Shown here: positions 102-58,696 of the stretch, in pieces | Layout: each line of letters opens with the position of its first letter | Position numbering within the stretch: the stretch's first letter is position 1 | From: an uncultured Bacteroidales bacterium | GTDB lineage: Bacteria > Bacteroidota > Bacteroidia > Bacteroidales > Muribaculaceae | NCBI GenBank assembly: GCA_902776435.1 | Contig: CACYQB010000003.1 | Location: 1-64,000, forward strand | Reading direction: 5' to 3' | DNA length: 64,000 nucleotides | Made by a program: the position numbers and the translations under genes | The notes under the pieces: model-generated | What the model was told of the DNA's origin: nothing | The model's database searches: none | Seen by the model: the letters and a program-made list of their open reading frames with translations, nothing else

Positions 102-141
102 CCTAAAGCCTAAAACCTAAAACCTAAAACCTAAAGCCTAA
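102..141 (-). repeat. Post-stop heptamer array (TTAGGCT/TTAGGTT) after the antiporter gene
   Basis: Read on the minus strand, five tandem 7-base units start 4 bases after the antiporter stop codon: TTAGGCT, three TTAGGTT, TTAGGCT, then a partial TTAGG. The same repeat sits after the stops of clpC (3453-3485), the STN receptor (34839-34856), the tricorn-type protease (49228-49260) and rseP (58582-58616), always with TTAGG on the coding strand. Confidence 0.85.
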
Positions 142-3232: not shown

Positions 3233-3331
3233 ACACCACACCCCACAATCTCACACAAACCCGCTAAGTTTTGTCAAACAACAATCACAACTTAGTTTCA
3301 CAACGTGAACAACCATTCTTCATAATAAAAA

Positions 3332-3383
3332 CAAGAAATACAAGAAACACAATCTGTTGACAATCAACTTCTTGTATTTCTTG
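3332..3383. repeat. 15-bp perfect inverted repeat built from 9-base direct repeats
   Basis: CAAGAAATACAAGAA (3332-3346) and its exact reverse complement (3369-3383) flank a 22-base loop. Each arm is made of tandem 9-mers (CAAGAAATA CAAGAAACA on the left; TTCTTGTAT TTCTTGCAC TTCTTGTCT on the right, running past the stem). It may be a strong mRNA hairpin downstream of clpC. Confidence 0.75.
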
Positions 3384-3452
3384 CACTTCTTGTCTTCATT
3401 TTATGGAACGCGGATGCATCTGTTGTGTTGTGGCGTTACACCAATGGCCCCA

Positions 3453-3485
3453 CCTAAAGCCTAACACCTAACACCTAAAGCCTAA
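3453..3485 (-). repeat. Post-stop heptamer array overlapping the clpC stop codon
   Basis: On the minus strand the units are TTAGGCT, TTAGGTG, TTAGGTG, TTAGGCT, TTAGG. The clpC stop codon TAG (plus 3482-3484) is bases 2-4 of the first unit, so the array begins inside the stop. Confidence 0.85.
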
Positions 3486-5638: not shown

Positions 5639-5722
5639 GCTTAATATTTTCCTTTCTTGTTGTTGTGTTAAAATCTCATTGCCTTTTAACAAGCAAACAC
5701 CGTGCCAGCGTATTAAAAAACC

Positions 5723-31521: not shown

Positions 31522-32180
31522 TGGAAAAGACCGATTTACTGTTCCGCATGATGGACGATCCGGAACAATATACCGATGAACAATGGCGGGAAATCCTCGC
31601 CGACAGTGAATGTGCGTCGCTCTATGAGATGATGTGCAAGACGTGTAGTGCCCTTGATGCAGAGCAGGTCGATCAGGAATTCACGGCCGAAACGGTTGAG
31701 CGGGAATGGGAACGCTTTGCCGCTGCCCATCAGGTTCGCACCGTCAAGCCCTTTGATTGGAGAAAAATCACTGCCGCTATTGTCGTCCTGGCAGTCTTCG
31801 GCATCGCTGCCGCTGCCATTTATTCCCATTTCGCCCATACTCCCCAAACCGAAACCGTTGAAAACACCATTCCCAATGTAAATCCGCAAGTTGCCGACAG
31901 GACAGAGGGTGCCGTTGATGCAGAGGCGAACAAGCCTCAGGCGCACCTGTATGATGACGTGCCGCTGGAGCAGATCATCAATGACCTGGCAGCACACTAC
32001 GACGTCCAGCCTCAGTGGCATGGCGACGAGGTGCGCTCGCTGCGGTTATACTATAAGTGGGAACCCGATTTCACCCTCGACGAGATCGTTGAGATGCTCA
32101 ACAATTTCGAGGCATTCAGCGTCAAGCTCGATGGTGATCAACTGGTGATTACCGGGAACGACATGATGGCCAATCAATGA
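31518..32180 (+). CDS. Compact anti-sigma factor with C-terminal DUF4974 domain
   Basis: This 220-residue single-pass protein has a cytoplasmic helical part (1-80), one membrane span (about 84-102, ITAAIVVLAVFGIAAAAIYSHF) and a periplasmic part ending in a DUF4974-like module (about 143-215, VPLEQIINDLAAHYDVQPQW, then FTLDEIVEMLNNFEAFSVKL). The FecR domain normally found between span and DUF4974 is missing, making this shorter than the usual 300-400 residues. It should hold the adjacent sigma factor at the membrane. Both ends overlap neighbours by 4 bp, so sigma, anti-sigma and receptor are translationally linked. Confidence 0.85.
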   Translation: MMEKTDLLFRMMDDPEQYTDEQWREILADSECASLYEMMCKTCSALDAEQVDQEFTAETVEREWERFAAAHQVRTVKPFDWRKITAAIVVLAVFGIAAAAIYSHFAHTPQTETVENTIPNVNPQVADRTEGAVDAEANKPQAHLYDDVPLEQIINDLAAHYDVQPQWHGDEVRSLRLYYKWEPDFTLDEIVEMLNNFEAFSVKLDGDQLVITGNDMMANQ

Positions 32181-34837
32181 TGAAATTGCGGGTATTGATA
32201 TTATTCCTCATCGTTTGTGCAGTGGCGTTAGGCGTAGATGCACAACAGATCACGCATCGTTTCAATCGTGTATCGATGAGCGAGGCGCTGAAGTATCTGC
32301 AAGGCCAAACCGACCGTTACCGCATCGTGTTCATCTTCAACGAACTCGAGGACTTCAGCGTGACTGCCGACGTGAGAGGAAAAAGCGTCCCTGACGCCAT
32401 CCGTCAACTTATCGGCTTCTATCCCATCGCCATGACCGTCAACGACAAGCACGAGATCTATGTGGAATGTACCCACAAGACCGACCGCCGCTTGATCGGT
32501 CGCCTCATCGACGAGAAAGGAGGGCCGCTGGAGTATGCCAACATCATCGTGATGGATCCACGGGATTCCACCCTGCTCACCCACGGCGTGAGCAATGCCA
32601 GCGGCATCTTTGTCATTCCTGTTGAGCGTGAAAAGGTCATTGCGCGTGTCAGTCATGTGGGTTACAAGACAGTGTATAAGCCTTGTAAGACGATGAGAAT
32701 CGGTACCATCAAGATGGAACCCGAGATTATCAGGCTCCAGGAAACCTTTGTTACCGCCCCTAAAATGCAGGTAGCGCGCGACGGGACCAATTATACCATC
32801 TACAGCCTTGGCGGCACCATCATGGGCAATGCGGGTAATGCACTGGACCTGTTACGATGGGCGCCGGGTATCATGGTAGATGCTGGTGACGTTATCTCGG
32901 TCATTGGGCGCAGTTCAACCGAGATCTATGTCAACAACCGACGTATCACCAATAAATCAGAACTCAGGGCTTTGAGCTCCCATAACATCAAGCGCATTGA
33001 GGTCATCCGTGACCCTGATGCTCAATATGCCTCCACTGCCGATGCGGTCATCATGTTATACACGCACAATTCCATCAAGAACCACCTGGGCGCCAGCCTT
33101 ACCGACATCGTGGACTTCAAGCACAAGGTGCCCAACACCACGACCCTGACGGTTGACGGCAAGTATAACAAGCTGTCGGGTAACGTCTCGCTGGGTTACA
33201 GCCGCAACTATTCCCGCAGTCACAACACGCAATATACTCATGCCTACGGCAGTGGCATGAAAAACGACACCACGAGCTACGCGGGCAGCGGAGACAATTA
33301 TCTTGTGTTCGCCGGCATCAACTATGCCTTCACCCCCAAGAGCGTCGTGGGTATTCAATACAGTGGAGATTTCAGCAAGACGGGTATTGACCTGCAGACG
33401 TCACGTGAGTACAACCATGGTTTCGTCACAGACCAGACAGACAAAAAGTGCGACATGGCCTTGAGGCCGGACCGCCAGAGCATTTCGGCCAGTTACTCGT
33501 GGCAACGCACCGAGGACTCCCGACTGCTGCTCATCTATGATCGCACCTACTCCTGGCAGACCAATCGACAGGACATCCATAGCCCTGGCCAAGACACCCA
33601 AACAATAGACTACTTCAACGACTATGAGATCAGCACGGCCACGGCAAGATATGATTTTGTCACCCGTGGTTGGGAACACAAGTCGGGACTGGAATGGGGC
33701 CATGCCAATAATGCCAGCGAGGTAGAGAAAGCTGGCGATAGGCAGCGAAGCAACCGCAACAACTACTGGGCCTCGGCCTATTATGCGCTGAGCAAACAGT
33801 GGAATCGCTGGTGGTTGAACCTGGGATTGCGCTACGAGTTTGACTACACCAAAACGCTACAGGACGTCGTCATCCGTTATGAGAAAACCTATCATGACCT
33901 GTTGCCGAGCCTTAAGGTGGGCTATCGGGTGAACGACGACCTGGACCTCTCGGCCAGCTATCGCCGCACGCTTGTGCGCCCATCTTACAACCAGTTGCGC
34001 TCAACATTCTACTTTAACGTGTTGCCGTACAACAGCCTGGGTTATTCCTTCTTGTCAAACTCTGATTTCATGACAGGTCACTCATCGCAAGAGAATTTAC
34101 CGAGCAACAACCTGTCGCCCAATATCATCTACCTGGGCGCTGATGACATCGCTACGGGCAATCCCGAGTTGCGCCCCACGGCGACCGACCGCTTTGCCCT
34201 GACGGCCCAGTATCGGCACTTTGCGGCCCAACTGTCCTACAGCCGTGTGGACAATGCCATCCAGAACGTACATCAGTTGTTGAGTTCAGGAGCCTTGCTC
34301 CATAGCCCCATCAACATCGGCCGAATTCATGCCCTGAGCCTCGACCTGGATTATTCCTACAGTAACAGATATTTCAACGTCTTCTTGCTGGCATCGGGCA
34401 CTTGGCCCCGCATTCCCGTGCCCTCGTTGGGACGGGAAAAAATCGAGAGCAGGCCGTTTGCCTTGCTGCATGGCAACCTACAGTACAACATCTCGCAGCA
34501 TGTGATGCTGGGGTGCGACCTGCTGTATTCCACGCCCTGGACCTCGGGCTGCAGCACACGCTGCAATTCAAGGCTGGGGTTGAACCTGAGCGTGATGGCG
34601 CGCTTGCTCGGCAACAGGCTCACCCTGGGCGCCAACTTCAATGACGTATTCAACCGCAGCATGAGTACCCGCAACGAGACGCAATATGGCAACGTGTTCA
34701 ACCGCACCGACATCCACAACGACTCGCGCAGTGTCTCGCTCATGGTCAGGTGGACGTTCAACACCATCAACAACCCGTTCAAGCGCCGCAGCGGCAACGA
34801 TGCCACCCTGCAACGCACCCAAGAAACAGTCAACTAA
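32177..34837 (+). CDS. STN-domain outer-membrane receptor (TonB-dependent receptor-like)
   Basis: This 886-residue protein has a signal peptide (1-21), an STN (secretin/TonB short N-terminal) domain at 24-92 (FNRVSMSEALKYLQGQTDRYRIVF), a CarboxypepD_reg-like domain (about 96-175, GRLIDEKGGPLEYANIIV), a plug-like region (about 180-300, NALDLLRWAPGIMV, then IKRIEVIRDPDAQYAS) and a beta-barrel of the OMP_b-brl_3 type. The STN domain is the part that signals to anti-sigma factors in Fec-type systems. No SusD gene follows, unlike glycan utilisation loci. The ligand is unknown. A TTAGGCT array begins right after the stop. Confidence 0.88.
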   Translation: MMKLRVLILFLIVCAVALGVDAQQITHRFNRVSMSEALKYLQGQTDRYRIVFIFNELEDFSVTADVRGKSVPDAIRQLIGFYPIAMTVNDKHEIYVECTHKTDRRLIGRLIDEKGGPLEYANIIVMDPRDSTLLTHGVSNASGIFVIPVEREKVIARVSHVGYKTVYKPCKTMRIGTIKMEPEIIRLQETFVTAPKMQVARDGTNYTIYSLGGTIMGNAGNALDLLRWAPGIMVDAGDVISVIGRSSTEIYVNNRRITNKSELRALSSHNIKRIEVIRDPDAQYASTADAVIMLYTHNSIKNHLGASLTDIVDFKHKVPNTTTLTVDGKYNKLSGNVSLGYSRNYSRSHNTQYTHAYGSGMKNDTTSYAGSGDNYLVFAGINYAFTPKSVVGIQYSGDFSKTGIDLQTSREYNHGFVTDQTDKKCDMALRPDRQSISASYSWQRTEDSRLLLIYDRTYSWQTNRQDIHSPGQDTQTIDYFNDYEISTATARYDFVTRGWEHKSGLEWGHANNASEVEKAGDRQRSNRNNYWASAYYALSKQWNRWWLNLGLRYEFDYTKTLQDVVIRYEKTYHDLLPSLKVGYRVNDDLDLSASYRRTLVRPSYNQLRSTFYFNVLPYNSLGYSFLSNSDFMTGHSSQENLPSNNLSPNIIYLGADDIATGNPELRPTATDRFALTAQYRHFAAQLSYSRVDNAIQNVHQLLSSGALLHSPINIGRIHALSLDLDYSYSNRYFNVFLLASGTWPRIPVPSLGREKIESRPFALLHGNLQYNISQHVMLGCDLLYSTPWTSGCSTRCNSRLGLNLSVMARLLGNRLTLGANFNDVFNRSMSTRNETQYGNVFNRTDIHNDSRSVSLMVRWTFNTINNPFKRRSGNDATLQRTQETVN

Positions 34838-34838
34838 A

Positions 34839-34856
34839 TTAGGCTTTAGGCTTTAG
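34839..34856 (+). repeat. Post-stop heptamer array after the STN receptor gene
   Basis: TTAGGCT, TTAGGCT, TTAG, starting 1 base after the TAA stop. It is followed directly by AACTAAC and CAATTAA units (34859-34872) that resemble the pre-start arrays, 14 bases before the next ATG. Confidence 0.75.
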
Positions 34857-40918: not shown

Positions 40919-40958
40919 TTTGGTCAAACAACTTGAACAACAATAAACAACATATACA

Positions 40959-40980
40959 ACTAATAACTAATAACTAAAGC
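40959..40980 (+). repeat. Pre-start heptamer array before the NfnA-like gene
   Basis: ACTAATA, ACTAATA, ACTAAAG and C, ending 2 bases before the ATG. Confidence 0.7.
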
Positions 40981-41765: not shown

Positions 41766-41820
41766 TGCTCGCTTTGCTCGCAGTATAGAGTTTAAAGTAT
41801 AGAGTTTAGAGAGGCTCCGC
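41766..41820 (+). repeat. Composite post-stop element after the NfnA-like gene
   Basis: It starts at the base after the TAA stop. The header T-GCTCGC-TTT-GCTCGC-AG (41766-41783) is followed by four heptamers, TATAGAG, TTTAAAG, TATAGAG and TTTAGAG (41784-41811), then the tail AGGCTCCGC. An element of identical length and layout follows the LRR gene (49342-49397, minus). Confidence 0.85.
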
Positions 41821-41855: not shown

Positions 41856-41890
41856 TACTTAAAACTTACAACTTACAACTTACAACTTTA
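41856..41890 (+). repeat. Pre-start heptamer array before the NfnB/GltA-like gene
   Basis: TACTTAA, three identical AACTTAC units and AACTTTA, ending 16 bases before the ATG. The leading TACTTAA unit is shared with the array before rlmI. Confidence 0.85.
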
Positions 41891-41906
41891 AAAAGAAAAT
41901 ATAACA

Positions 41907-45993: not shown

Positions 45994-48900
45994 ATGAAGA
46001 CAAAATTCATCTTGATCGCAGCCATGGCTGCTGCGGCATTGACCAGCCAGGCCGATGAAGGCCGCTTGTTGCGCTTCCCTGGCACCAATGGCCGCGAGGT
46101 GGCATTCAGCTATGCTGGTGACATCTACACCGTGCCCATCACCGGTGGCACAGCCCGCAAACTCACGTCCCACAAGGGTTATGAGGCCTTTGCACGCTTC
46201 TCGCCCGATGGGCAGACTATCGCGTTCACGGGCCAGTATGACGGCAATACCGAAGTCTACGTGATGCCTGCCGTGGGTGGCGAGCCCCGTCGCATCACCT
46301 TCACTGCCAGCAATCCCCGTGACGATTGGGGCGACCGCATGGGTCCCAACAACATCGTCATGACTTGGACCCCTGACGGCAAGGGCGTTATCTACCGCAA
46401 TCGCATTAGCGACAGCTTTGACGGCAAGTTGTGGTGCGCTCCCCTCGACGGGAGCATGTCCAAGCAGTTGCCATTGCCCGAGGGCGGTTTCTGCTCCTAT
46501 AATGCCGACGGTACCAAGATGGCCTATAACCGCGTTTTCCGCGAATTCCGCACGTGGAAATACTACAAGGGCGGTATGGCCGACGACATCTGGATCTATG
46601 ACACCCAGGCCAAGACGGTGACCAACATTACCGACAACATTGCCCAGGACATCGACCCGATGTGGATTGGCGACGAGATTTACTTTATGAGCGACCGCGA
46701 TAACCGCATGAACATCTTTGTCTATAACACCCGCACAGGCACCACCCAGAAAGTGACCGACTTTACCGAATATGACGTGAAGTTTGCCAACTGCGGTGGC
46801 GGCAAGATTGTGTTTGAAAACGGAGGTTATCTCTATGTGCTCGATCCCTCAACCAAGCGCAGCGAGAAAATCACGGTCTATCTCAACAGCGAGAACAACT
46901 TCGCCCGCGAAGAACAGCGCAAGGTGAAGGAGAACCTCACTGGAGGTAGCCTGGCGCCCGATGGCAGCCGCATCGTCATCAGCGCCCGCGGTGAGGTCTT
47001 TGACGTGCCTGCCAAGCATGGCGTGACGCGCAACATCACCCACACCCCCGGTGTACACGAGCGCAACGCCCAGTGGAGCCCCGACGGCAAGAACATCGCC
47101 TATATCAGCGACCAGACTGGTGAGACCGAGCTGTGGATGCGCCCCGTCGACAGCGATAAGGCCATCCAGCTGACCAAAGACAACGACACCTATATCCGCG
47201 ACTTTGAGTGGAGTCCCGACGGCAGCCAGATTGTTTATACTGACCGCAAGAACCGCATTGTGCTGCTGAACGTCAAAGCCATGACCAAACAGACTTTGCT
47301 GACCGACGAGATGGGCGAAATCCCCACTCCCTCCTTCTCGCCCGACGGCAAGTGGTTCACCTATTATCGTCAGGGAACTAACGAGTATGGCGTTGTTTAC
47401 CTCTATAACATTGCCGAGCGCAAGGAGTACCCGGTGACTGACCGCTGGTATGACAGCAACTCGCCTGTCTTCAGCAGTGACGGCAAATACCTGATTTTTG
47501 CTTCGGCACGTGATTTCAACCCCATCTACAGCAACATCGAGTGGAACTTCGCTTATCGTGACATGGAGGGCATCTACCTCGTCATGTTGGCCAAGGACAC
47601 GCCCTCGCCTTTCCTCCCCAAGGACGACCAGGTGAATGCCGGTGGTGACAAGTCCAAGGATGCTGCTAAAGACGCTCCCAAGGACAAGAAGGGCAAGGGA
47701 AAAACCGCTGTTGACACCAATGCCACACGCATCGACATCGACGGCATTGCCGACCGCATCGTCAAGATTCCTATTGGCACAGGCAGTTATGGCAATTTCG
47801 TCTGCAACGGCACTCACCTCTGGTATAGCGGACGCGGTAGCGTTCACGTCTATGACTTTGCCGAGCAGAAGGACGAAGTGATTGCCGACCGTGCTTTCAT
47901 GGTTCCCTCGGCCGATATGAAGACCGCTGCTTTCCTGAAAGGGGAAGACCTGTATATCGCTCCGTTGACACCTCGCAAGGCCGACTTGAGCGAGGCCGTA
48001 AACCTCGATGACATGATTGCCACAGTCAACTATGACCAGGAGTGGAACCAGATCTTCAATGAGGCCTGGCGTGCCTATCGTGACGGCTTCTATCTCGAGA
48101 ATATGCACGGTGTGGATTGGCAGGCCATGCACGACAAGTATGCCGCCCTGCTGCCCTACGTCAAGAACCGTCTGGATTTGACCTACGTCATCGGTGGCAT
48201 GATCAGCGAGTTGGCTGTGGGCCACGCCTACGTTGACGGTGGCGACCACATCAAGGCTGACCAGCACAACATCGGTATGCTTGGTGCCGAATTGGAGCAG
48301 GCAGCTAACGGTTACAAAATCACCAAGATCCTGCGTGGTGCTCCTGACCGTGAGGAACTGCGCTCGCCGCTGCTGGAGCCTGGCATGAACGTCAAGGAGG
48401 GCGACATTATCACCGCTGTGGACGGCGTGAGTGCCGCTGGTGTGGCCAATATCTACACCCTGCTTCGCGACAAGGCCGGTGTGATGACCGAGCTGACCTT
48501 GAACGGTAACCGCAAGGTGGTTGTCAAGCCCATTCAGGACGAGTATCCCCTGTATCACCACGAATGGGTACAGCACAATATCGACTACGTGAGCGAGAAG
48601 ACTGGCGGCCGTGTGGGCTACATCTACATCCCCGACATGGGTCCCGAAGGTCTGCGTGAGTTCTCGCGCTACTTCTTTGCCCAGACCGACAAGGAAGCCC
48701 TCATCGTGGACGATCGCGGCAATGGCGGTGGTAACATCTCGCCGATGGTCATCGAGCGCTTGCTGCGCAAACCTTACCGCATGACCATGTACCGTGGCAG
48801 CAACTACAACGGCACAACGCCCGAGCGCACGGTCGTTGGTCCCAAGGTGCTACTGGTGAACAAGTACAGCGCCAGCGACGGCGACCTCTTCCCCTGGAGT

Positions 48901-49224
48901 TTCAAGGAGAACAAGATCGGTCCCGTGATCGGTACCCGCTCGTGGGGTGGCATCGTGGGCATCAGCGGTTCACTTCCTTATATGGACGGAACTGATATCC
49001 GTGTGCCCTTCTTCACCAACTATGACACCCGCGGCAATTGGATTGTGGAGAACCATGGTGTTGACCCTGACATCCTTATCGACAACGACCCCGTGAAGGA
49101 GTTCAACGGCATTGACCAGCAGCTCGACAAGGCCATCGAGGTTATCCTCGACCTGCTCAAGGACCGCAAGCCCATGCCCAAGACCCCCGCACCGCGCACC
49201 CTCCACGACCTGGGCGTCGATTAG
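45994..49224 (+). CDS. Secreted tricorn-type S41 peptidase
   Basis: This 1076-residue exported protease has a signal peptide (about 1-20). Two beta-propeller regions follow (about 25-650), with repeated SPDG/SPDGK blades of the WD40-like PD40 type. Between the propellers is a Lys/Asp-rich linker (KDAAKDAPKDKKGKGK). Then come a tricorn C1-type helical domain (NQIFNEAWRAYRDGFYLENMHGVDW, with the catalytic His region), a PDZ domain (LLEPGMNVKEGDIITAVDGVSAAGV) and the S41 catalytic domain, with the nucleophile Ser in NKYSASDGDLFPW and a later Glu-containing strand. It should cut peptides in the periplasm. A five-unit TTAGG array starts 3 bases after the stop. Confidence 0.92.
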   Translation: MKTKFILIAAMAAAALTSQADEGRLLRFPGTNGREVAFSYAGDIYTVPITGGTARKLTSHKGYEAFARFSPDGQTIAFTGQYDGNTEVYVMPAVGGEPRRITFTASNPRDDWGDRMGPNNIVMTWTPDGKGVIYRNRISDSFDGKLWCAPLDGSMSKQLPLPEGGFCSYNADGTKMAYNRVFREFRTWKYYKGGMADDIWIYDTQAKTVTNITDNIAQDIDPMWIGDEIYFMSDRDNRMNIFVYNTRTGTTQKVTDFTEYDVKFANCGGGKIVFENGGYLYVLDPSTKRSEKITVYLNSENNFAREEQRKVKENLTGGSLAPDGSRIVISARGEVFDVPAKHGVTRNITHTPGVHERNAQWSPDGKNIAYISDQTGETELWMRPVDSDKAIQLTKDNDTYIRDFEWSPDGSQIVYTDRKNRIVLLNVKAMTKQTLLTDEMGEIPTPSFSPDGKWFTYYRQGTNEYGVVYLYNIAERKEYPVTDRWYDSNSPVFSSDGKYLIFASARDFNPIYSNIEWNFAYRDMEGIYLVMLAKDTPSPFLPKDDQVNAGGDKSKDAAKDAPKDKKGKGKTAVDTNATRIDIDGIADRIVKIPIGTGSYGNFVCNGTHLWYSGRGSVHVYDFAEQKDEVIADRAFMVPSADMKTAAFLKGEDLYIAPLTPRKADLSEAVNLDDMIATVNYDQEWNQIFNEAWRAYRDGFYLENMHGVDWQAMHDKYAALLPYVKNRLDLTYVIGGMISELAVGHAYVDGGDHIKADQHNIGMLGAELEQAANGYKITKILRGAPDREELRSPLLEPGMNVKEGDIITAVDGVSAAGVANIYTLLRDKAGVMTELTLNGNRKVVVKPIQDEYPLYHHEWVQHNIDYVSEKTGGRVGYIYIPDMGPEGLREFSRYFFAQTDKEALIVDDRGNGGGNISPMVIERLLRKPYRMTMYRGSNYNGTTPERTVVGPKVLLVNKYSASDGDLFPWSFKENKIGPVIGTRSWGGIVGISGSLPYMDGTDIRVPFFTNYDTRGNWIVENHGVDPDILIDNDPVKEFNGIDQQLDKAIEVILDLLKDRKPMPKTPAPRTLHDLGVD

Positions 49225-49227
49225 AAT

Positions 49228-49260
49228 TTAGGCTTTAGGTATTAGGCTTTAGGTATTAGG
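49228..49260 (+). repeat. Post-stop heptamer array after the tricorn-type protease gene
   Basis: TTAGGCT, TTAGGTA, TTAGGCT, TTAGGTA, TTAGG: regular 7-base period starting 3 bases after the TAG stop, immediately followed by the hairpin at 49263. Confidence 0.9.
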
Positions 49261-49262
49261 TA

Positions 49263-49300
49263 GCATCCGCACTCCAAATGAATGGAATGCGGATGCTTAT
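49263..49300. terminator. Hairpin terminator between convergent protease and LRR genes
   Basis: GCATCCGCACTCCA (49263-49276) pairs with TGGAATGCGGATGC (49283-49296) with one mismatch and a 6-base loop, followed by TTATT. A third copy of GCGGATGC occurs at 49342-49349, and an 8-bp inverted repeat AATTATTA/TAATAATT lies at 49311-49337. Confidence 0.7.
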
Positions 49301-49341: not shown

Positions 49342-49397
49342 GCGGATGCCTCACTAATCTCTAATCACTAATCTCTCATCTGCGAGCAACGCGAGCT
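49342..49397 (-). repeat. Composite post-stop element after the LRR gene
   Basis: On the minus strand, straight after the TAA stop: A-GCTCGC-GTT-GCTCGC-AG (49380-49397), four heptamers ATGAGAG, ATTAGTG, ATTAGAG and ATTAGTG (49352-49379), then AGGCATCCGC. It has the same length and layout as 41766-41820. Confidence 0.85.
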
Positions 49398-52300
49398 TTA
49401 CCAGCTGCCGCTGAGGAGGTAGTCGATCAGGGCGGTTACGTCGTTGATTCTTACATCGTTGTCATGGTTACAGTCGGCAGCATCGACATTGATGCCCGAG
49501 CCGTCGCCACTCAGCAGGTAGTCGATCAAGGCTGTCACGTCGTTGATTCTCACATATCCGTCACCGTTCACGTCGCCAAGCAGGAAGGCCTGCTTCTCAG
49601 TGAAGTAGCCGGGATTGCTGGGACCGCCGTCGATGTGGGCATAGTCTTTGCCGGTGTGGTTTGCATCGTAGGCTGTGCCTTGGCCGCCCACCAGGCTGAT
49701 GCAATTCTGGAACATGTTGTCTGAACTGTTGACAGTCGTCGTGCTCCACGCGTCGCCTACATAGATGGTGCTGAGCATTGTGCAGTTCTGGAACATGTAC
49801 TGCATGCTTCTCACCTTGCCGGTATTGAAGTTGCTCAAGTCGAGGCTTGACAACTGATTGCAGCCAGTAAACATATAGCTCATGTTTGTCACATTGGCCG
49901 TGTTGAGGCTGCTCACGTCAAGGCTGGTCAGAGCCCTGCATCCGGTGAACATGGCATACATGCTTGTCACGTTGTCGGTGTTGAAACCGCTCACGTCGAT
50001 GCTGGTTAACCTGTTACATGAATAGAACATGGCGCCCATGTTGGTCACGTTCTCGGTATCGAAACCGCTCAAATCAATATTACTCAAGCGACTGCAGCCC
50101 TCAAACATGGAAAGCATGCTTGTCACGCTTGAAGTATTGAGGTTTTCTATCCCTGTAAAAGTCGTGAGCTGGTTCATGTAGTAGAACATGTAATTGGTTG
50201 TCGTGAGACGGGCGTCAGCAAACGAGTCATCAAACACCACTTGGGTGACAGCGGTATTGGTCACGTCATCGTACCATCCGGGATGGCTGTTTTCGGCTGG
50301 CATGTCGAAGGTCGTGCCCTCGCGGATGCTGCGCTCGGTGTCGTAGTAGAACGTCAGCGTCGTGTTGTCAGCAGTATATACGGCATAAGCCTCGGGCTCG
50401 GTGGACGCATTGATATCGGTGAAGTAGCCCGGGTTGCTGGGGCCGCCGTCAATGTGAGCATAGGTGGCATCTATGTGGTCGGCATCGAAGGTCGTGCCCA
50501 TGCCACCGACCAGGCTGGTACACTCTCCGAACATATTTCCAGAGTCCATAATAGCCGCAGTGCTCCAATCACTGCTCACAGTGATAGTCCGCAGACTGTT
50601 ACTATAATGGAACATATCAAACATGATGGTCACCTTAGACGTGTTGAAACTGCTCAAGTCAAGGCTTTTCAAGCCTTTGCAACCGAAGAACATCATGCCC
50701 ATATTGGTCACCTGGGACGTGTTAAAACTGCTCACGTCAAGGTTTGTTAGGCTAGTGCAGAAAGCGAACATGCCGGCCATATTGGTCACCTTAGACGTGT
50801 TGAAGTGGCTCAAATCAATGTTTGTCAACTTTGTACAGGCTTCGAACATCCAACGCATGGTGGTCACCGCGCTGGTGTTCAGGTAGCTGATGCCCGTGAT
50901 GGATTCAAGTTTCTCCATTTTATAAAACCAATCGCAGGTGGTTGTCGGGCGTGCATCAGCGAACGAGGGGTCAAAGACCACCTTGGTCACCAAGGCATTG
51001 GTGCCGTCGGTGTCCCAACCGGTATCGTTTTCGTCCTCGTTTAGGTCGTAGGTCGTGCCCTCGCGGGAGCTGCGCTGGTCGTCATAGTAGAACGTCAGCG
51101 TCGTATTTGACGGCGTATAGCAAGCATAGGCCTCGTTACCGACGGAGAAGTAGCCCGGGTTGCTGGGGCCGCCGTCGATGTGAGCGTAGGTGGCATCTAT
51201 GTGGTCGGCATCGAAGGTCGTGCCCATGCCACCGACCAGGCTGGAGCAGCCCCAGAACATATCCGCTGATACTATCAAAGCATCCATGTTCCAGTTGTCG
51301 ACGACATAGATGGTTTCCAGCTGAGAGCAAGAGCTGAACATAGTTATCATGTATTCCACGCTGGCAGTGTTGAAACTGCTCAGGTCAAGGCTAGTCAAGC
51401 TCGAGCAACCTTCGAACATACCACTCATGTTTGTTGCGCTGGCTGTGTTGAAACTGCTCAGGTCAAGGCTCGTTAAGCCGGAGCAACCAGCGAACATAAA
51501 GCTCATGCCTGTTACATTGGCCGTATTGAAACTGCTCACGTCAAGGCTGGTCAAGCCCGAACAGCCATCGAACATATAATCCATTTCTGTTACGTTGGCC
51601 GTGTTGAAACCGCTCACATCAAGGCTGGTTAAGCTCGAGCAGCCATAGAACATCGAGAACATAGTTGTCACCTTCTCAGTGTTAAAGTGACTCATGTCAA
51701 GACTCGTTAAGCCCGAGCACTCATTGAACATATAGCTCATGTTTGTTAAGTTGGCCGCATTGAAACTGCTCAGGTCTATACTCTCTAGTGAGTAGCAATA
51801 AGAGAACATATTACCCATATTTGTCACATTGGCCGTGTTGAAACTGCTCAGGTCTAAGCTATCTATAGACCAGCATGAAGTGAACATATTACCCATGTCG
51901 GTCACTGCAGCCGTGTTGAAATGACTCAAGTCAAGGCTAGTCAAGCTGCTGCAGGACCAGAACATATTGTTCATGTTAGTCACCTCGCTGGTGTTGAGGT
52001 ATTCCATACCAGTGATAGAGATAAGATTCTGCATATCATAGAACCAGGAATAGGTCGTTGTCGGGCGGACAGCAGCGAACGACGGGTCAAACACCACACG
52101 AGTTACTGACGATTCGATCAGCCAATCAGGGTTGTTATTACCCGTGTTCAGGTCGTAGCTCCTCCCCCCGTGGTTGTAGCGCTCGGTATCGTAGTAGAAC
52201 GTCAGTGTCGTGTTAGACGGCGTATAGCAGGCATAGGCCATGAGCTCGGTGGAAGCATTAGCATCGGTAAAGTAACCAGGATTGCTGAGGCCTCCGTCGA

Positions 52301-55259
52301 TGTGGGCATAGTCTTTGCCGGTGTGGTTTGCATCGTAGGCCGTACCCTGGCCACCTACCAGGCTAGTGCAATTCTGGAACATATAATTAGCATAAGAGGA
52401 AATTGAGATACCAGCAGTACTCCACTGGTCACCCACATAGATGGTGGCAAGATGGCTGCATCCATAAAACATTCTCAACATGATACTCACATTGGCGGTG
52501 TTGAGGCTGCTCAAGTCTAGGCGGGTTAAACCGGTACATCCTTCAAACATCGAAGCTGTGGTAGTGGCTTGGGATGCGTCGAAATTGCTCAGATCAAGAC
52601 TCGTTAAACCACTGCAGCTCTGGAATATACTGCCAAAATTTTGCACCTTGGAGGTGTTGAAACCACTCACGTCGATGCTCGCTAGGCTGCTGCAGTCCTG
52701 GAACATGCTACACATATTGGTCACTTCGGACGTGTTGAGGTACTGCGTCATGCCTGTAATTGACTGAAGATTTCCCATACCATTAAACCAATAAAAGGTA
52801 GTAGTGGGAAGGGCATCGGCAAATGACGGGTCAAACACCACCTGGGTGACAGATGAATTAATGCCGTCAGAGTACCAACCAGGCTGGGATGTTCCCACAT
52901 TCAGGTCATAGGTCGTGCCCTCGCGCGTGCTGCGCTGGTTATCGTAGTAGAACGTGAGCGATGTGTTGTCTGAAGTATATACGGCATAGGCCTTGGGCGC
53001 ATTGATATCGGTGAGGTAGCCAGGGTTGCTGGGGCCGCCGTCAACGTGGGCGTAGTCAGCGTTTACATGGTTAGCATCATAGGTCGTTCCAGCGCCTCCC
53101 ACCAGGCTGGTGCAGCCTACAAACATATTTGTTGATTCTGTCAATGCATTCATGTCCCATCCTTCTCCCACATAGATGGTCGCCAAGTTGTCACAATTCT
53201 GGAACATGCTAGTTGTTATTGTCACCTTATTGGTATTGAAACCGCTCAGGTCAAGACTCGTCAGCCCAGAGCAGCCACTGAACATGCCCATCATATTTGT
53301 TGTCTTATCCGTGTTGAAACCGCTCAAGTCAAGATTTGTCAATTTGTTGCAGTTCAAGAATATATAGGTCATGTTAATTACCTGGGATGTGTTGAGATAC
53401 TGCGCCAAGCCTGTAATTGACTGGAGGTTTTCCATTTCGGCGAACCACCCGAAGGTCGAAACGGGACGGGCATCGGCAAATGACGGGTCAAAAACAACGT
53501 ATTTGACATATTCTTCAATGCTGCTTGTCCCTATAACCCAAGAGGGAAAAATGGGTTCATCCACGTCTAAGTTGATACCATAGGTCGTGCCCGTGCGGAT
53601 GCTGCGTTCCATGTCGTAGTAGAACGTCAGCGTCGTGTTGTCTGCAGTATATACCGCATAGGCCTCGGGCTCGGCGGGCGCATTGATATCGGTGAAGTAA
53701 CCGGGGTCGCTGGGACCGCCATCGATGTGGGCATAGGCGGCATCCACATGGTTGGCGTCGTAGGTCGTGCCCTTACCGCCCACCAGGCTGGTACAGCCAT
53801 CAAACATGTTAAGGGAATTGGTGACACTTGCTGTACTCCATCCTTCTCCCACATAGATGGTCGCCAAGTTGTCGCAATTCTGGAACATGCTATTTGTTAT
53901 TGTTACCCTAGCAGTATTGAAATTGCTCAAGTCAAGTTCAGTCAAGCCTATACCACTGAACATACCCATCATATATTTTGCCTTTTCGGTGTTGAAACCG
54001 CTCAGGTCAAGATTTGTCAATTTTTTGCAGTCCAAGAACATATAGGTCATGTCAGTTACCCGTGAAGTGTTAAGATACTGCGTCATGCCTGTAATTGACT
54101 CGAGGTTTTCCATCCTGCCGAACCAACCGCAAATCGAGGTGGGATTGGCATTAGCAAATGACGGGTCAAAAACAACGTATTTGACATACTCTTCAATGCT
54201 GGATGTTCCCAAAACCCAGGAGGGTAACATCCCCATACCATTACCGCTTAAGTTGATATCAAAAATTGTGCCCTCGCGGATGCTGCGCAGTTTATCGTAG
54301 TAGAACGTCAGCGTAGTGTTCGACGGCGTGTAGCAGGCATAGGCCTCAGGCCCTGTGGGCGCATTGATATCGGTGAAGTAGCCCGGGTTGCTGGGGCCTC
54401 CGTCGATGTGGGCATAGGTGGCATTCGTGTACATACTACTGTAGGTTGTGCCATGGCCGCCCACCAGTTTATCACATCGGTTGAACATTTGTCCGGAGTT
54501 GGTAACGGCATCCGTGCTCCACTCGTCACCGACATAGATGGTGGTTAAATTGCTGCAGCCATCGAACATGCAATACATGTTAGTCACCTGAGCTGTGTAG
54601 AAGCTGCTCAAGTCAAGACTCGTCAGACCCGAACAGCCGTTGAACATAAAGGCCATGTTTGTCACCTGAGCGGTGTTGAAGCCGCTCACGTCAAGGCTAG
54701 TCAGACCCGAACAGCCTTTGAACATGCTGTTCATCTCGGTCACGTTGGCTGTGTTAAAACTGCTCACGTCAAGGCTTGTCAAACCCGAGCATATATTGAA
54801 CATATTGCTCATATTTGTAACGTTGCGGGTGTCGAAGTGGCTCAAGTCGAGACTCGCCAAGGCGCTGCAATTGTAGAACATGTTCGACATACTTAATACC
54901 TCCGATGTGTTCAGGTATTCAATTCCAATAATGGATGCCAGCTGTGACATGCCATTAAACCAGTAGTTTGTCCCTACAGGACGGGCGTCGGCAAAAGAGG
55001 GGTCAAACACCACCTGGGTGACAAACTGGTGTATATTGTCAGAATACCATCCTGGGACACCACTTGAAGAGTTCAGGTTGTAGGTCGTGCCCGGGCGGGA
55101 ACTGCGCTGGTTGTCGTAGTAGAACGTCAGCTTGGTGTTCGAGGGCGTGTAGCAGGCATAGGCCTCGGCTGCCTTTGCAGCCACCGATGTGAGCATCAGC
55201 AGCAGCAACATCATGAGCCAGCGGCCCATGGACTGTTTGAAAAGTCTAAATAGTGCCAT
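49398..55259 (-). CDS. Giant BspA-like (DUF285) leucine-rich-repeat surface protein with dockerin-like C-terminus
   Basis: This 1953-residue exported protein (ATG at 55259; the upstream in-frame codon is TTG) has a signal peptide (about 1-31, MMLLLLMLTSVAAKA). Seven large modules follow. Each opens with EAYACYTPSNTTLTFYYD or a variant, then VVFDPSFADARP, SITGMxYLNTSEVTNM and a variable number of 22-residue DUF285 LRRs (consensus FNTxxVTNMxxMFxxCSxLTSLDLS), and closes with TIYVGDxWST, SLVGGxGTTYDANH and YAHIDGGPSNPGYFTDIN. The last 60 residues hold two dockerin-like repeats (DVNGDGYVRINDVTALIDYLL and a second copy). Such proteins act in adhesion to host or bacterial surfaces. The gene is monocistronic with a consensus promoter. 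Confidence 0.93.
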   Translation of the reverse strand: MALFRLFKQSMGRWLMMLLLLMLTSVAAKAAEAYACYTPSNTKLTFYYDNQRSSRPGTTYNLNSSSGVPGWYSDNIHQFVTQVVFDPSFADARPVGTNYWFNGMSQLASIIGIEYLNTSEVLSMSNMFYNCSALASLDLSHFDTRNVTNMSNMFNICSGLTSLDVSSFNTANVTEMNSMFKGCSGLTSLDVSGFNTAQVTNMAFMFNGCSGLTSLDLSSFYTAQVTNMYCMFDGCSNLTTIYVGDEWSTDAVTNSGQMFNRCDKLVGGHGTTYSSMYTNATYAHIDGGPSNPGYFTDINAPTGPEAYACYTPSNTTLTFYYDKLRSIREGTIFDINLSGNGMGMLPSWVLGTSSIEEYVKYVVFDPSFANANPTSICGWFGRMENLESITGMTQYLNTSRVTDMTYMFLDCKKLTNLDLSGFNTEKAKYMMGMFSGIGLTELDLSNFNTARVTITNSMFQNCDNLATIYVGEGWSTASVTNSLNMFDGCTSLVGGKGTTYDANHVDAAYAHIDGGPSDPGYFTDINAPAEPEAYAVYTADNTTLTFYYDMERSIRTGTTYGINLDVDEPIFPSWVIGTSSIEEYVKYVVFDPSFADARPVSTFGWFAEMENLQSITGLAQYLNTSQVINMTYIFLNCNKLTNLDLSGFNTDKTTNMMGMFSGCSGLTSLDLSGFNTNKVTITTSMFQNCDNLATIYVGEGWDMNALTESTNMFVGCTSLVGGAGTTYDANHVNADYAHVDGGPSNPGYLTDINAPKAYAVYTSDNTSLTFYYDNQRSTREGTTYDLNVGTSQPGWYSDGINSSVTQVVFDPSFADALPTTTFYWFNGMGNLQSITGMTQYLNTSEVTNMCSMFQDCSSLASIDVSGFNTSKVQNFGSIFQSCSGLTSLDLSNFDASQATTTASMFEGCTGLTRLDLSSLNTANVSIMLRMFYGCSHLATIYVGDQWSTAGISISSYANYMFQNCTSLVGGQGTAYDANHTGKDYAHIDGGLSNPGYFTDANASTELMAYACYTPSNTTLTFYYDTERYNHGGRSYDLNTGNNNPDWLIESSVTRVVFDPSFAAVRPTTTYSWFYDMQNLISITGMEYLNTSEVTNMNNMFWSCSSLTSLDLSHFNTAAVTDMGNMFTSCWSIDSLDLSSFNTANVTNMGNMFSYCYSLESIDLSSFNAANLTNMSYMFNECSGLTSLDMSHFNTEKVTTMFSMFYGCSSLTSLDVSGFNTANVTEMDYMFDGCSGLTSLDVSSFNTANVTGMSFMFAGCSGLTSLDLSSFNTASATNMSGMFEGCSSLTSLDLSSFNTASVEYMITMFSSCSQLETIYVVDNWNMDALIVSADMFWGCSSLVGGMGTTFDADHIDATYAHIDGGPSNPGYFSVGNEAYACYTPSNTTLTFYYDDQRSSREGTTYDLNEDENDTGWDTDGTNALVTKVVFDPSFADARPTTTCDWFYKMEKLESITGISYLNTSAVTTMRWMFEACTKLTNIDLSHFNTSKVTNMAGMFAFCTSLTNLDVSSFNTSQVTNMGMMFFGCKGLKSLDLSSFNTSKVTIMFDMFHYSNSLRTITVSSDWSTAAIMDSGNMFGECTSLVGGMGTTFDADHIDATYAHIDGGPSNPGYFTDINASTEPEAYAVYTADNTTLTFYYDTERSIREGTTFDMPAENSHPGWYDDVTNTAVTQVVFDDSFADARLTTTNYMFYYMNQLTTFTGIENLNTSSVTSMLSMFEGCSRLSNIDLSGFDTENVTNMGAMFYSCNRLTSIDVSGFNTDNVTSMYAMFTGCRALTSLDVSSLNTANVTNMSYMFTGCNQLSSLDLSNFNTGKVRSMQYMFQNCTMLSTIYVGDAWSTTTVNSSDNMFQNCISLVGGQGTAYDANHTGKDYAHIDGGPSNPGYFTEKQAFLLGDVNGDGYVRINDVTALIDYLLSGDGSGINVDAADCNHDNDVRINDVTALIDYLLSGSW
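50421..50518 (-). repeat. Near-identical 98-base segment shared by two LRR modules
   Basis: 50421-50518 and 51147-51244 differ at only about two positions over 98 bases, within the closing part of modules 6 and 5. Such stretches are substrates for recombination that could add or remove whole modules. Confidence 0.75.
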
Positions 55260-55308
55260 AATGATCAAGATTTATTTAGGTTAATAATATTTGGATGTTA
55301 TTTGACCC

Positions 55309-55425: not shown

Positions 55426-55587
55426 CTCCCCCTCTTGGATAAGAGGGGGCCGGGGGGCGTCGATACCACCGATAGCAGACACTGACATAGTATCATCAAT
55501 AGCAGACACTGTCATAGTATCATCAAAAGCAGACATTGACATAGTATCATCAACGCCCCCTTGCCCCCTCTAATCTTAGAGGGTGAG
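55426..55587. mobile_element. MITE-like element: 35-bp inverted repeats around three 27-bp tandem repeats
   Basis: The left arm 55426-55460 and right arm 55553-55587 are imperfect inverted repeats over 35 bases (about 27 matches). Each arm is also an internal hairpin (CCCTCT...AGAGGG). Between and slightly into the right arm are three 27-bp direct repeats (55474-55500, 55501-55527, 55528-55554) built around CATAGTATCATCAA. There is no coding capacity. No clear target-site duplication was seen, so mobility is inferred from form only. Confidence 0.65.
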
Positions 55588-57060: not shown

Positions 57061-58578
57061 ATGGACTTATCATTCTTTACGACCGCATCATTCTGGATCA
57101 AAACGCTTGAACTGATATTAGCACTCAGTATCCTTGTTCTGTTTCATGAATTAGGTCATTATTCGTTCGCACGACTCTTTGGCGTGTGGGTAGAAAAATT
57201 CTATTTATTCTTTAACTACAAGTTCAGCCTGGCCAAATGGAAACCAGGCAAGTACCTCAAGTGGTTCTCTACAGGCCGTGAGATGGGAGCCATGGAAACA
57301 CCCGTCGAGAGTCAAATCGAAGCACGGGAAGTGAAAAAAATTGAATCCACTGAAGCAAAGAAATCAAAACAAACAGTAGCGGATGCTGCTGATGAAAACA
57401 AGAACTCATGGCGTGCCACCGAGTATGGCATCGGCTGGATTCCCCTGGGTGGTTACTGTGCCATCGCGGGTATGATTGACGAGTCGATGAATACCGAGGC
57501 CATGAAGCAGCCCGCCAAGCCGTGGGAGTTCCGTAGCAAACCCGCCTGGCAGCGCCTGCTGATCATGCTGGGTGGTGTGCTGTTCAATTTCCTGCTAGCC
57601 ATCATCATCTATTCAGGCATCGTCTATAGCCAGGGTGAGCAGTTCATTAAGTTTGCAGATGCCACCGAGGGCATGAACTACTGCGAGACAGCCCATAAGG
57701 TGGGCTTCGTGGATGGTGACATCCCCCTGGCAGCCGACGGCCACGAATTGGTGACCATGAACCCCGAGGATCTGCAGGCCATGTTAACGGCCAAGCAGGT
57801 TACCGTGCTGCGCAACCACAAGGACACTGTCACGCTCAATCTGCCCAAGGATTTCATCTTCCAGGTCGATGAGGAGGCGCGAGAGGGCGGTGCATTCATG
57901 GAGTACCGCTGGCCCGTGGTGGTTTCCCAGACGCTGCTCAACCAGGGCGGCGAGAAAGCAGGCCTAAAGGACGGTGACCGCATGGTGGCCGTAAATGGCG
58001 TGCCCACCCCCGACTACTTCACCTTTACCGCCGAGTTGAGCAAGAACCAGGGAAAGAACGTCAGCCTTGACTACATGCGAGACGGCCAGGTAATGAACGC
58101 CGCCAGCGTGCCTGTCGATGGCGAAGGCCACATCGGTATCCTGCTCACTGAGCCCATCAAGATATTCAAACCCACCATCATCCACTATAACCTGTTACAG
58201 TCCATTCCCCGTGGCATCCAGATGGGTTGGGACAAGATGGTGAACTATGTGAAGCAGCTCAAACTCATCTTCACCCCGCAAGGAGCAAAGAGTGTGGGTA
58301 GCTTCGGCGCTATCGGCAGCATTTTCCCGCCCACATGGGACTGGGTTAACTTCTGGAACGTTACAGCGTTTATCTCCATCATCCTGGCGGTAATGAACGT
58401 GCTTCCTATCCCCATCCTGGATGGTGGCCACGTGCTGTTCCTGCTCTATGAGATGATTACAAGGCGTCAGCCGAGCGAGAAATTCCAGGAGATATCGATG
58501 AAAATCGGTATGGCTTTCATCATTGCCCTGATGGCACTGGCCATCGGTAACGACATCTTCAGGTTCGTAATCAAGTGA
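57061..58578 (+). CDS. rseP: RseP-type site-2 intramembrane metalloprotease with an unusual insertion
   Basis: This 505-residue inner-membrane protease has zinc motif HELGH at 29-33 (LVLFHELGHYSFARLFG) and the second zinc ligand in PIPILDGGHVLF (about 450), with a PDZ region between (LLNQGGEKAGLKDGDRMVAVNGVPTPDY). It releases membrane-bound regulators after a first cut. Bacteroidetes orthologues are usually about 440-460 residues. Here about 50 charged residues (about 70-118, with EAREVKKIESTEAKKSKQ) are inserted before TEYGIGWIPLGGYC. It is 42 bp after dxr. A five-unit TTAGG array starts 3 bases after the stop. Confidence 0.93.
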   Translation: MDLSFFTTASFWIKTLELILALSILVLFHELGHYSFARLFGVWVEKFYLFFNYKFSLAKWKPGKYLKWFSTGREMGAMETPVESQIEAREVKKIESTEAKKSKQTVADAADENKNSWRATEYGIGWIPLGGYCAIAGMIDESMNTEAMKQPAKPWEFRSKPAWQRLLIMLGGVLFNFLLAIIIYSGIVYSQGEQFIKFADATEGMNYCETAHKVGFVDGDIPLAADGHELVTMNPEDLQAMLTAKQVTVLRNHKDTVTLNLPKDFIFQVDEEAREGGAFMEYRWPVVVSQTLLNQGGEKAGLKDGDRMVAVNGVPTPDYFTFTAELSKNQGKNVSLDYMRDGQVMNAASVPVDGEGHIGILLTEPIKIFKPTIIHYNLLQSIPRGIQMGWDKMVNYVKQLKLIFTPQGAKSVGSFGAIGSIFPPTWDWVNFWNVTAFISIILAVMNVLPIPILDGGHVLFLLYEMITRRQPSEKFQEISMKIGMAFIIALMALAIGNDIFRFVIK

Positions 58579-58581
58579 TTA

Positions 58582-58616
58582 TTAGGCTTTAGGTATTAGG
58601 TTTTAGGCTTTAGGTG
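58582..58616 (+). repeat. Post-stop heptamer array after rseP
   Basis: TTAGGCT, TTAGGTA, TTAGGTT, TTAGGCT, TTAGGTG: five exact 7-base steps beginning 3 bases after TGA. Two degenerate units (TTAGGCA, TTAG) follow at 58624-58634. Confidence 0.9.
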
Positions 58617-58640
58617 TCATACGTTAGGCATTAGTAACTA

Positions 58641-58689
58641 TACTTAAAACTAAAAACTAAGGACTAAGGACTTAAAACTAACAACTCAA
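58641..58689 (+). repeat. Pre-start heptamer array before rlmI
   Basis: TACTTAA, AACTAAA, AACTAAG, GACTAAG, GACTTAA, AACTAAC, AACTCAA: seven 7-base units ending 7 bases before the ATG. Its reverse complement reads as TTAGTTT/TTAGTCC units, so it is inverted relative to the array after rseP and could pair with it (TTAGGTTTTAG against CTAAAAACTAA has one mismatch in 11). Confidence 0.85.
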
Positions 58690-58696
58690 AACAAAA

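Follow-up and report, generated by a model that had tools for sequence, protein, structure and literature searches.

We show that many of the TTAGGNN arrays in this genome form the left arm of intergenic inverted repeats in which both arms are built of heptamer arrays. This arm starts at the stop codon of the upstream gene, often supplying its TAG; where the genes lie in tandem, a complementary-sense right arm (CTAANNN, CTTANNN or CTGANNN) often ends near the next start codon. TTAGG is one among several heptamer families of the genus, and the presence of the elements varies between related species.

The first-pass annotation of the window, the whole 64,000-nt stretch of DNA analysed, had drawn attention to five arrays at 102-141, 3453-3485, 34839-34856, 49228-49260 and 58582-58616. 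All five have the exact 7-base period reported for them, and in all five TTAGG lies on the coding strand of the upstream gene. The spacing between stop codon and first TTAGG is 4, inside the first unit, 1, 3 and 3 bases, in agreement with the 0-4 bases (once inside the stop) originally given. The upstream genes had been described as unrelated, which Pfam bore out: they encode a Na+/H+ exchanger with a TrkA_C domain, a ClpC-type AAA ATPase, a TonB receptor-type barrel, a tricorn-like S41 protease and an M50 protease. The arrays of the window and the features adjoining them are as follows.

102..141, minus strand: left-arm (L-arm) post-stop array of 6 TTAGGNN units, 4 bases past the TAA of the Na+/H+ antiporter gene (CDS 146-2386, minus)
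3453..3485, minus strand: left-arm post-stop array of 5 units, in which the TAG of the first unit is the TAG stop of clpC (CDS 3482-5692, minus)
34839..34856, plus strand: short left-arm array, TTAGGCT x2.6, 1 base past the TAA of the TonB receptor-type gene (CDS 32177-34837)
40958..40977, plus strand: right-arm array, AACTAAT x2.9, just 5' of the start codon at 40983
41782..41808, plus strand: left-type array, AGTATAGAGTTTAA x1.9, after the previous stop, sharing its junction with the array at 41857..41892
41857..41892, plus strand: right-arm array of the ACTTACA type, 5' of the start codon at 41907
49228..49262, plus strand: left-arm post-stop array of 5 units, 3 bases past the TAG of the tricorn-like protease gene (CDS 45994-49224)
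49263..49296, no strand assigned: inner hairpin GCATCCGCACTCC...GGAATGCGGATGC, adjoining the protease array, a motif seen again in the loops of other elements
49351..49381, no strand assigned: right-arm array CTAATCT/CTAATCA, facing the stop of the convergent gene (TRF)
58582..58616, plus strand: left-arm array TTAGGCT TTAGGTA TTAGGTT TTAGGCT TTAGGTG, 3 bases past the TGA of rseP (CDS 57061-58578)
58617..58641, plus strand: loop with two decayed units, TTAGGCA and TTAGTAA, at the rseP-methyltransferase junction
58642..58696, plus strand: right-arm array with units ACTTAAA, ACTAAAA and ACTAAGG, ending at the ATG of the methyltransferase gene (58697)

The predicted RNA fold of the rseP junction (z of -3.4) joins the right arm (58642..58696) to the left. 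A search of the window against Rfam at the gathering score returned 0 matches. Coding-strand orientation stands as an observation, but a mirror-type array often precedes the next start; with left and right arms belonging to one inverted-repeat element, the orientation largely follows.

We asked how far this placement extends by taking a 25% sample of the 3.45-Mb own genome (43 contigs), 864 kb made up of contiguous tiles and the window. Genes were longest-first ORFs of at least 80 aa, called with no trained caller, a procedure by which, for example, a spurious ORF displaced the L018 methyltransferase. The pattern TTAGGNNTTAGGNNTTAGG (three TTAGGNN units) has 82+88 overlapping exact matches in the whole own genome, and the same pattern read backwards has 0. 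The sample holds 26 arrays of at least three TTAGGNN units, 0 of them inside ORFs. Measuring distance as array start minus stop end, 19 of the 26 lie at -3 to +23 nt of a same-strand stop, 5 at 154-293 nt, and 2 have none within 400 nt. The genome G035 (400 kb) gave a similar tabulation: 31 TTAGG arrays, 0 inside ORFs. Relative to the same-strand stop, 17 of these are placed at -17 to +31 nt and 7 at 60-340 nt; the other 7 have no such stop within 400 nt. Stop anchoring and orientation, which the annotation had proposed to check by tabulating distance and strand, therefore hold in the own sample and recur in G035 and in 45 rseP loci. Its suggestion that TTAGGCT is the first unit was sustained in the window (5/5 arrays) but not in the sample, where 15/26 arrays begin with it, for comparison with a CT share of 33/80 among all internal units.

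Anchoring to the stop persists in long intergenic gaps. With the three sets pooled, gaps of at least 150 nt hold 43 left arrays, and 22 of them are no further than 20 nt from the stop (4.3 expected); for gaps of at least 60 nt the figure is 61 of 87 (18.0 expected). Random placement with respect to stops had been named as one outcome that would overturn the idea, and these counts, as far as the test could be run, speak against it; the other, an assembly artefact, is likewise opposed, within the same reach, by arrays in many MAGs and at orthologous gene ends. Right arrays near the start number 8/46 in gaps of at least 150 nt against 3.9 expected, so that clear anchoring in long gaps is confined to the stop side. 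When the arrays in gaps of at least 60 nt are divided by family, anchored ones amount to 38/55 for TTAGG (12.0 expected), 18/27 for families without GG (5.0 expected) and 5/8 for others (1.8 expected). A stop signal specific to TTAGG is therefore not what we see, as other heptamer families act alike. By gap type, the own genome holds 80 arrays in 56.5 kb of tandem, 10 in 11.4 kb of convergent and 6 in 18.6 kb of divergent gaps; the corresponding figures are 46 in 22.1 kb, 15 in 5.8 kb and 13 in 9.8 kb for G035, and 44 in 31.9 kb, 14 in 9.3 kb and 7 in 10.4 kb for the 45 loci. As raw counts per kb, arrays are sparser in divergent gaps in all three sets.

The seven-base period is a property of the intergenic DNA on both sides of the junction. 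Self-similarity peaks at lags of 7, 14 and 21 in post-stop and pre-start DNA alike, while coding DNA shows a 3-base rhythm only. When a 4-base core has to recur three times, period 7 yields 112 noncoding arrays, and periods 5, 6, 8, 9, 10 and 11 yield 2, 7, 21, 56, 9 and 5; the excess at periods 9 and 8 comes from other palindromic repeats, in which stop anchoring was not evident by eye. Among the junctions read, the post-stop families are TTAGGNN, TTAGTGA, AGTTTAG, AGTTAGG and TAAGTTT, and the pre-start families ACTAAAA, ACTAAGG, ACTTAAA, ACTTACA, ACTGAAA and CCTAAAA; the main units here are ACTAANN, ACTTANN and others, and ACTGA-core arrays are present in an 858-kb pool. Arrays were assigned by an in-phase test (AGK for left, MCT for right) whose definition was set after junctions had been seen. 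This test yields 37 left and 45 right arrays in own-genome tandem gaps, where five other periods average 0.8 and 1.0, and the 37 becomes 35 under a stricter test that removes two ACTAAGG right arms, with the same conclusions. The laxer left-arm test, which also caught some ACTAAGG right arms, underlies the counts given below for pairing next to the start, sense versus antisense, convergent and per-set terminators, and arm matching.

Within TTAGGNN units of the own genome the first N is only C or T and the second mostly T, A or G. Adjacent units carry identical NN in 12/54 cases (shuffled mean 14.2), so neighbouring units are no more alike than shuffled ones, and G035 shows a mild excess (48/112 against 37.4). 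Simple slippage was rejected on this ground as the sole source of the arrays. In 60 kb of G041 there was no array by the AGK/MCT test, despite a high whole-genome ACTAA count. TTAGG arrays were likewise absent from 100 kb of G009, a genome with 282 matches in all.

Several other repeats share this intergenic DNA. Period-9 inverted-arm repeats (ACAAGAAAT, TCAGATNAT, ACGAATTAC) crowd it at window positions 3327-3397 and in the C1, C2 and C4 tiles (L046-L080). Intergenic period-8 inverted-arm repeats (CGCTAAGC/CTTAGCGG), like those of period 9, are sometimes nested in or beside heptamer arms. A recurrent linker or inner hairpin, GCATCCGCA...TGCGGATGC, is found at 49263-49296 of the window and in many loops; GCATCCGC occurs 44 times, on both strands, in the noncoding DNA of the 864 kb, and TGCTCGC..GCGAGCA modules adjoin stops. 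Three further observations concern coding regions of the window. The M50 protease (rseP, 57061-58575) contains about 25-30 unmatched residues (about 81-109) and aligns in two pieces to many relatives; a 1956-aa ORF on the minus strand (49398-55268) carries 78-bp (26-residue) tandem repeats; and at 55472-55553 a 27-bp unit, repeated three times with 92% matching, overlaps one end of a short ORF.

Left and right arms tend to occur together. Among tandem junctions with gaps of 45-250 nt, both arms are present in 27, the left alone in 23, the right alone in 34 and neither in 359 (OR 12.4, p=2e-13). The predicted RNA folds of 19 two-arm junctions have a median z of -3.4, with 14/19 below -2, against a median of -1.0, with 35/95 below -2, for 95 own-genome junctions without arms (Mann-Whitney p=0.0014). 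A single arm brings no gain in folding over array-free junctions, the median z being -0.7 for 21 left-only and -1.2 for 27 right-only junctions compared with -1.0. In 20 two-arm junctions, 26% of the last 20 nt 5' of the start are paired (laxer test). The sense fold is no more stable than the antisense one (it is the lower in 12/20, p=0.33, laxer test), and hence there is no sign of selection on RNA as against DNA.

Complementarity was also assessed by counting reverse-complement 6-mers common to the two halves of a junction. Tandem junctions reached the observed sharing in 0 of 2000 permutations in all three sets, and convergent junctions in 0, 2 and 0 of 2000, as against 408 (own genome), 1676 (G035) and 38 (45 loci) of 2000 for divergent junctions; G005, a genome with no TTAGG match, gave 794 of 2000 for tandem junctions. 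Matching of arm families within two-arm junctions is weak, only slightly above permuted (224/5000, laxer test), so the strong 6-mer sharing is not readable as family matching, and the 6-mer count also takes in other palindromes. The arms are complementary mainly because matching units are used throughout a genome. By eye, the arms of L015 and L018 show substitutions without compensation.

Stop codons at array-bearing ends differ from those elsewhere. TAG is the stop at 13/37 array ends and 75/581 other ends in the own genome, at 15/28 and 40/253 in G035, and at 10/25 and 97/524 in the 45 loci; at non-array ends it is the least used stop in all three samples. At the rseP end, the TAG stop of L004, L015 and L018 falls by eye in the YAG register of CAG-type arrays, those of L015 and L018 probably representing one event.

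Canonical terminators are found at 3/47 array-bearing tandem ends and 87/366 others (p=0.005), a deficit carried by the own genome (0/23 vs 50/181; G035 p=1, relatives p=0.69; laxer test). Convergent ends show no difference, with terminators at 2/21 ends with an array (laxer test) and 40/211 without. Promoter-like TAnnTTTG sites occur in 14/84 tandem junctions with an array and 124/359 without (p=0.0015). With few terminators and few promoter-like sites, many array junctions look operon-internal, and a role in transcription termination, one of those suggested in the annotation, is disfavoured at tandem junctions.

The wider distribution was surveyed in 101 genomes (the own genome, 60 of the genus and one each from 40 other families), one per species and all incomplete MAGs. 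TTAGG arrays are present in 40/101 and ACTAA arrays in 54/101; within the genus the figures are 35/61 and 46/61, with at least 10 TTAGG matches in 22 genomes. TTAGG and ACTAA counts correlate across genomes (Spearman 0.50). Among the matches listed, the main NN sets are genome-specific, mainly TG/TT in G096 and CA/CC/TA in G069. In two other families (G098, G070), 6 of 8 fetched TTAGG arrays lie within 27 nt of a same-strand stop. The ACTAA arrays in 140 kb of G096, a member of another family, are of opposite polarity by nearest gene edge in 4/4 cases, two of them directly after stops, and one ACTAA array of G088 is also opposite; three of three in G009 have the expected pre-start sense, and three in G069 lie at least 67 nt from any gene edge. 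Other G096 arrays (GGACAGT type and others) are of mixed polarity. Given the reversals in G096 and G088, the polarity rule belongs, within the genomes tested, to this genus and is not universal. Stop-adjacent heptamers as such extend beyond the genus, as L042, a MAG labelled Prevotella, has an ATTAAAC-type run directly 3' of an rseP-like stop.

Comparison of orthologous gene ends with and without arrays, as the annotation had advised, showed that relatives have another family, a terminator-like hairpin or an ATGA overlap in the same place. By-eye labels for the rseP end of 45 relatives gave an ATGA overlap with the next gene in 10, a spacer that is short or of another kind in 15, and heptamer or related arrays, drawn from several families, in 20; in two distant rows, L042 and L043, the methyltransferase start is not visible. 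On the rseP tree these by-eye states need at least 12 changes over 46 rows, and at least 10 among 32 ingroup rows, counts in which gain is not separable from loss and to which recombination at the junction may have contributed. For the protease gene, the 30 loci compared (own included) have near identical C-termini, and a period-7 array is present in 6/30 by the in-phase test, with about 4 more by eye; those of the window, G006 and G035 are TTAGG arrays, the remaining ones consist of other heptamers, and ends without an array have mostly a hairpin-plus-T or unrelated sequence (by eye). By the same in-phase test the clpC end has an array in 1/30 loci, the own one, and the antiporter end in 3/30, own included. 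G006 has a 5-unit array at the same place as the protease array of the window; between the two, 0/25 core and 6/10 NN positions differ at a fourfold-site identity of 64%, a comparison of one gene end in which a unit shift could account for part of the NN difference. In G025 and G122, an approximately 92% identical pair, array lengths differ by 14 and 7 bp (by eye); at one convergent junction, a canonical terminator of one species corresponds to a period-9 palindrome of its partner.

We tentatively propose that the heptamer elements are transcribed intercistronic hairpin spacers in operons that separate the translation, and perhaps the mRNA decay, of neighbouring genes, a plausible reading that we advance with some reserve from comparative sequence data. 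The elements would be transcribed as stem-loops between cistrons and would occupy places where relatives have ATGA-type overlaps or other spacers. Translation would end cleanly at the array: seven being 1 mod 3, three TTAGGNN units give stops in all three frames. The run 5' of the next start, left mostly unpaired in the predicted folds, would keep the start region open, and the neighbouring genes would be uncoupled in translation, perhaps also in mRNA decay. Translational coupling is reported to need overlaps or very short distances (PMC10666635), and Bacteroidetes are described as lacking Shine-Dalgarno sequences, with initiation tuned by mRNA structure and by upstream bases such as adenine at -3 (PMC6847099). 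Against the spacer reading, some arrays sit between convergent and some between divergent genes. For the way in which units are written and kept alike across a genome, local slippage alone is a poor fit. A bolder form, in which each species of the genus has its own small heptamer vocabulary, written and renewed as paired arms at stop-start junctions by a dedicated trans-acting process, so that a genome-wide layer of intercistronic hairpins sets the coupling of operon neighbours, strikes us as improbable.

Other readings account for parts of these data. The arrays may be neutral or selfish repeats, arising by slippage, fold-back synthesis and copying and surviving where harmless, with stop anchoring a residue of purifying selection; the patchy distribution (a TTAGG match in 35/61 genomes of the genus, at least 10 in 22), the unrelated genes and the period 8 and 9 palindromes that fill the same intergenic DNA, by eye without evident stop anchoring, all fit, as do the unit-multiple differences of 7 and 14 bp (by eye) in the approximately 92% identical pair, through which slippage contributes without explaining mixed units with a fixed core. 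We consider this possible though unlikely, as anchoring persists in gaps of at least 150 nt (22/43 vs 4.3), the core is conserved at one gene end where NN and fourfold sites are not, and the order of own-genome units is not run-like, the mild excess of G035 notwithstanding. Doubtful, too, is the view that the elements are 3'-end hairpins, REP-like mRNA stabilisers or weak, possibly bidirectional, terminators that replace canonical ones. It draws on the protease, clpC and antiporter ends, where by eye many relatives have hairpin-plus-T and others arrays or period-9 palindromes, on convergent junctions with long inverted arms, and on the preference of the own genome for tandem and convergent over divergent gaps, which REPs are reported to share. 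It is opposed by the scarcity of promoter-like sites (14/84) and hairpin-plus-T terminators (3/47) at array-bearing tandem junctions, and by the rseP-methyltransferase pair, which is compact in most array-less relatives, so that a strong terminator there would silence the second gene.

That a putative protein recognises phased YAG in RNA, or the heptamer in DNA, with the core as contact and NN as spacer, seems to us quite improbable: the conserved core, the restricted NN and main unit sets that differ among genomes (among the matches listed) suit it, but each genome has several families, and complementary arms would hide single-stranded sites. A backup stop, with TAG in every frame past the stop guarding against readthrough and frameshift, would exploit the seven-base period, which yields stops in three frames, and the TAG that arrays supply at many ends. 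It is nonetheless very improbable, given that CAG-type TTGTCAG arrays, whose main units have no stop codon, hold the same place (L004, L015, L018), that in each of the three samples array-free ends use TAG less than either of the other stops, and that right arms are left unexplained; for eubacteria, the account in PMC6764699 reports no evidence for selected fail-safe 3' stops. Mobile elements, moved by RAYT (a Y1 tyrosine transposase) or written by a reverse transcriptase, would explain why unit types are common genome-wide and why empty sites are precise, yet we give this scarcely any credence. The Y1_Tnp count is unrelated to the array count (Spearman 0.10, p=0.45), with none found in array-rich G058 and matches present in TTAGG-free G005 and G042; RVT_1, matched in 22/61 genomes, had no match in array-rich G000, G009 and G033. 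These absences are soft, the MAGs being incomplete, and we rejected both enzymes as drivers because their content does not track array number. Integron attC sites, whose core is TTRRRY and to which TTAGGC conforms, were also set aside, because the orientation is opposite, the units are tandem and the other families do not fit.

Intergenic heptamer tandem repeats are familiar from the heptanucleotide STRR of cyanobacteria, and the present arrays resemble these in being intergenic, tandem and heptameric. The first-pass annotation knew of no description of a stop-anchored family, but the kind had already been reported: heptamers of Xanthomonas (GGGANTN) and Nostoc (GGGGA(C/T)T) lie on the coding strand within 50 bp after stops, sometimes overlapping the stop (Rehm et al. 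2015, PMC4692102). According to the same report, those before starts are on the non-coding strand, they are under-represented between divergent ORFs and occur at unrelated genes, convergent inverted pairs number 70 and 75 in two Xanthomonas genomes, and the GGG tracts are proposed to form G-quadruplexes. Our arrays share with the features reported there the intergenic seven-base tandem units with fixed and free positions, coding-strand placement after stops, stop overlap and inverted pairs (OR 12.4); the complementary sense before starts is likewise shared, and reversed for the ACTAA arrays of G096 and G088. They differ in their G tracts: TTAGG has GG only, and 27 left arrays are without any GG. 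These GG-less arrays (AGTTTAG, TAGTTTT/TAAGTTT, AGTGATT) obey the same placement rule, and a G-quadruplex therefore cannot be its general or shared reason. Further differences from what that report describes are the several families per genome, the genome-specific unit sets, the empty sites and the ATGA-overlap alleles.

TAACTGA direct repeats are reported from Beggiatoaceae, Cyanobacteria and five Bacteroidetes, mostly forward and just before starts, with one set of seven in F. litoralis in reverse orientation directly after a stop (MacGregor 2015, PMC4679880). Related units of this genus show the same polarity, forward before starts and reverse after stops, and both occur in Bacteroidetes. 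In what that paper reports, however, TAACTGA is mostly start-side and a single sequence, with one inverted repeat in the main genome, and its account as used here describes no paired arms. REPs are palindromic, lie mostly within 20 bp of gene 3' ends, favour tandem and convergent over divergent gaps, and often supply a TAG stop from their termini; they are 20-40 bp hairpins with a GTAG or CGTC tag, the GTAG type being tied to RAYT (Di Nocera et al. 2013, PMC3733652). The heptamer arrays have the 3'-end position and the TAG supply in common with REPs as so described. By eye, the tagged 20-40 bp hairpin was not found among the arrays, RAYT association was not seen, and the account of REPs drawn on here mentions no heptamer periodicity. 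Intrinsic terminators are set apart by their hairpin-plus-T, which we found at 3/47 tandem left-array ends and, by the laxer test, at 2/21 convergent array ends (40/211 without an array).

Earlier reports of heptamer arrays beside genes treat Xanthomonas, Nostoc and Beggiatoaceae one at a time and explain them separately (G-quadruplex, translational operator). The genus described here brings many families together under one placement rule, with array-lacking species at the same junction as natural controls, and function is directly testable in orthologous operons in which a given gene pair overlaps in some species and is parted by a terminator or a heptamer hairpin in others. Relative to the known systems, what is new is that families without GG follow the rule, that empty sites accompany occupied ones, and that one array has kept its TTAGG cores while its NN positions diverged.
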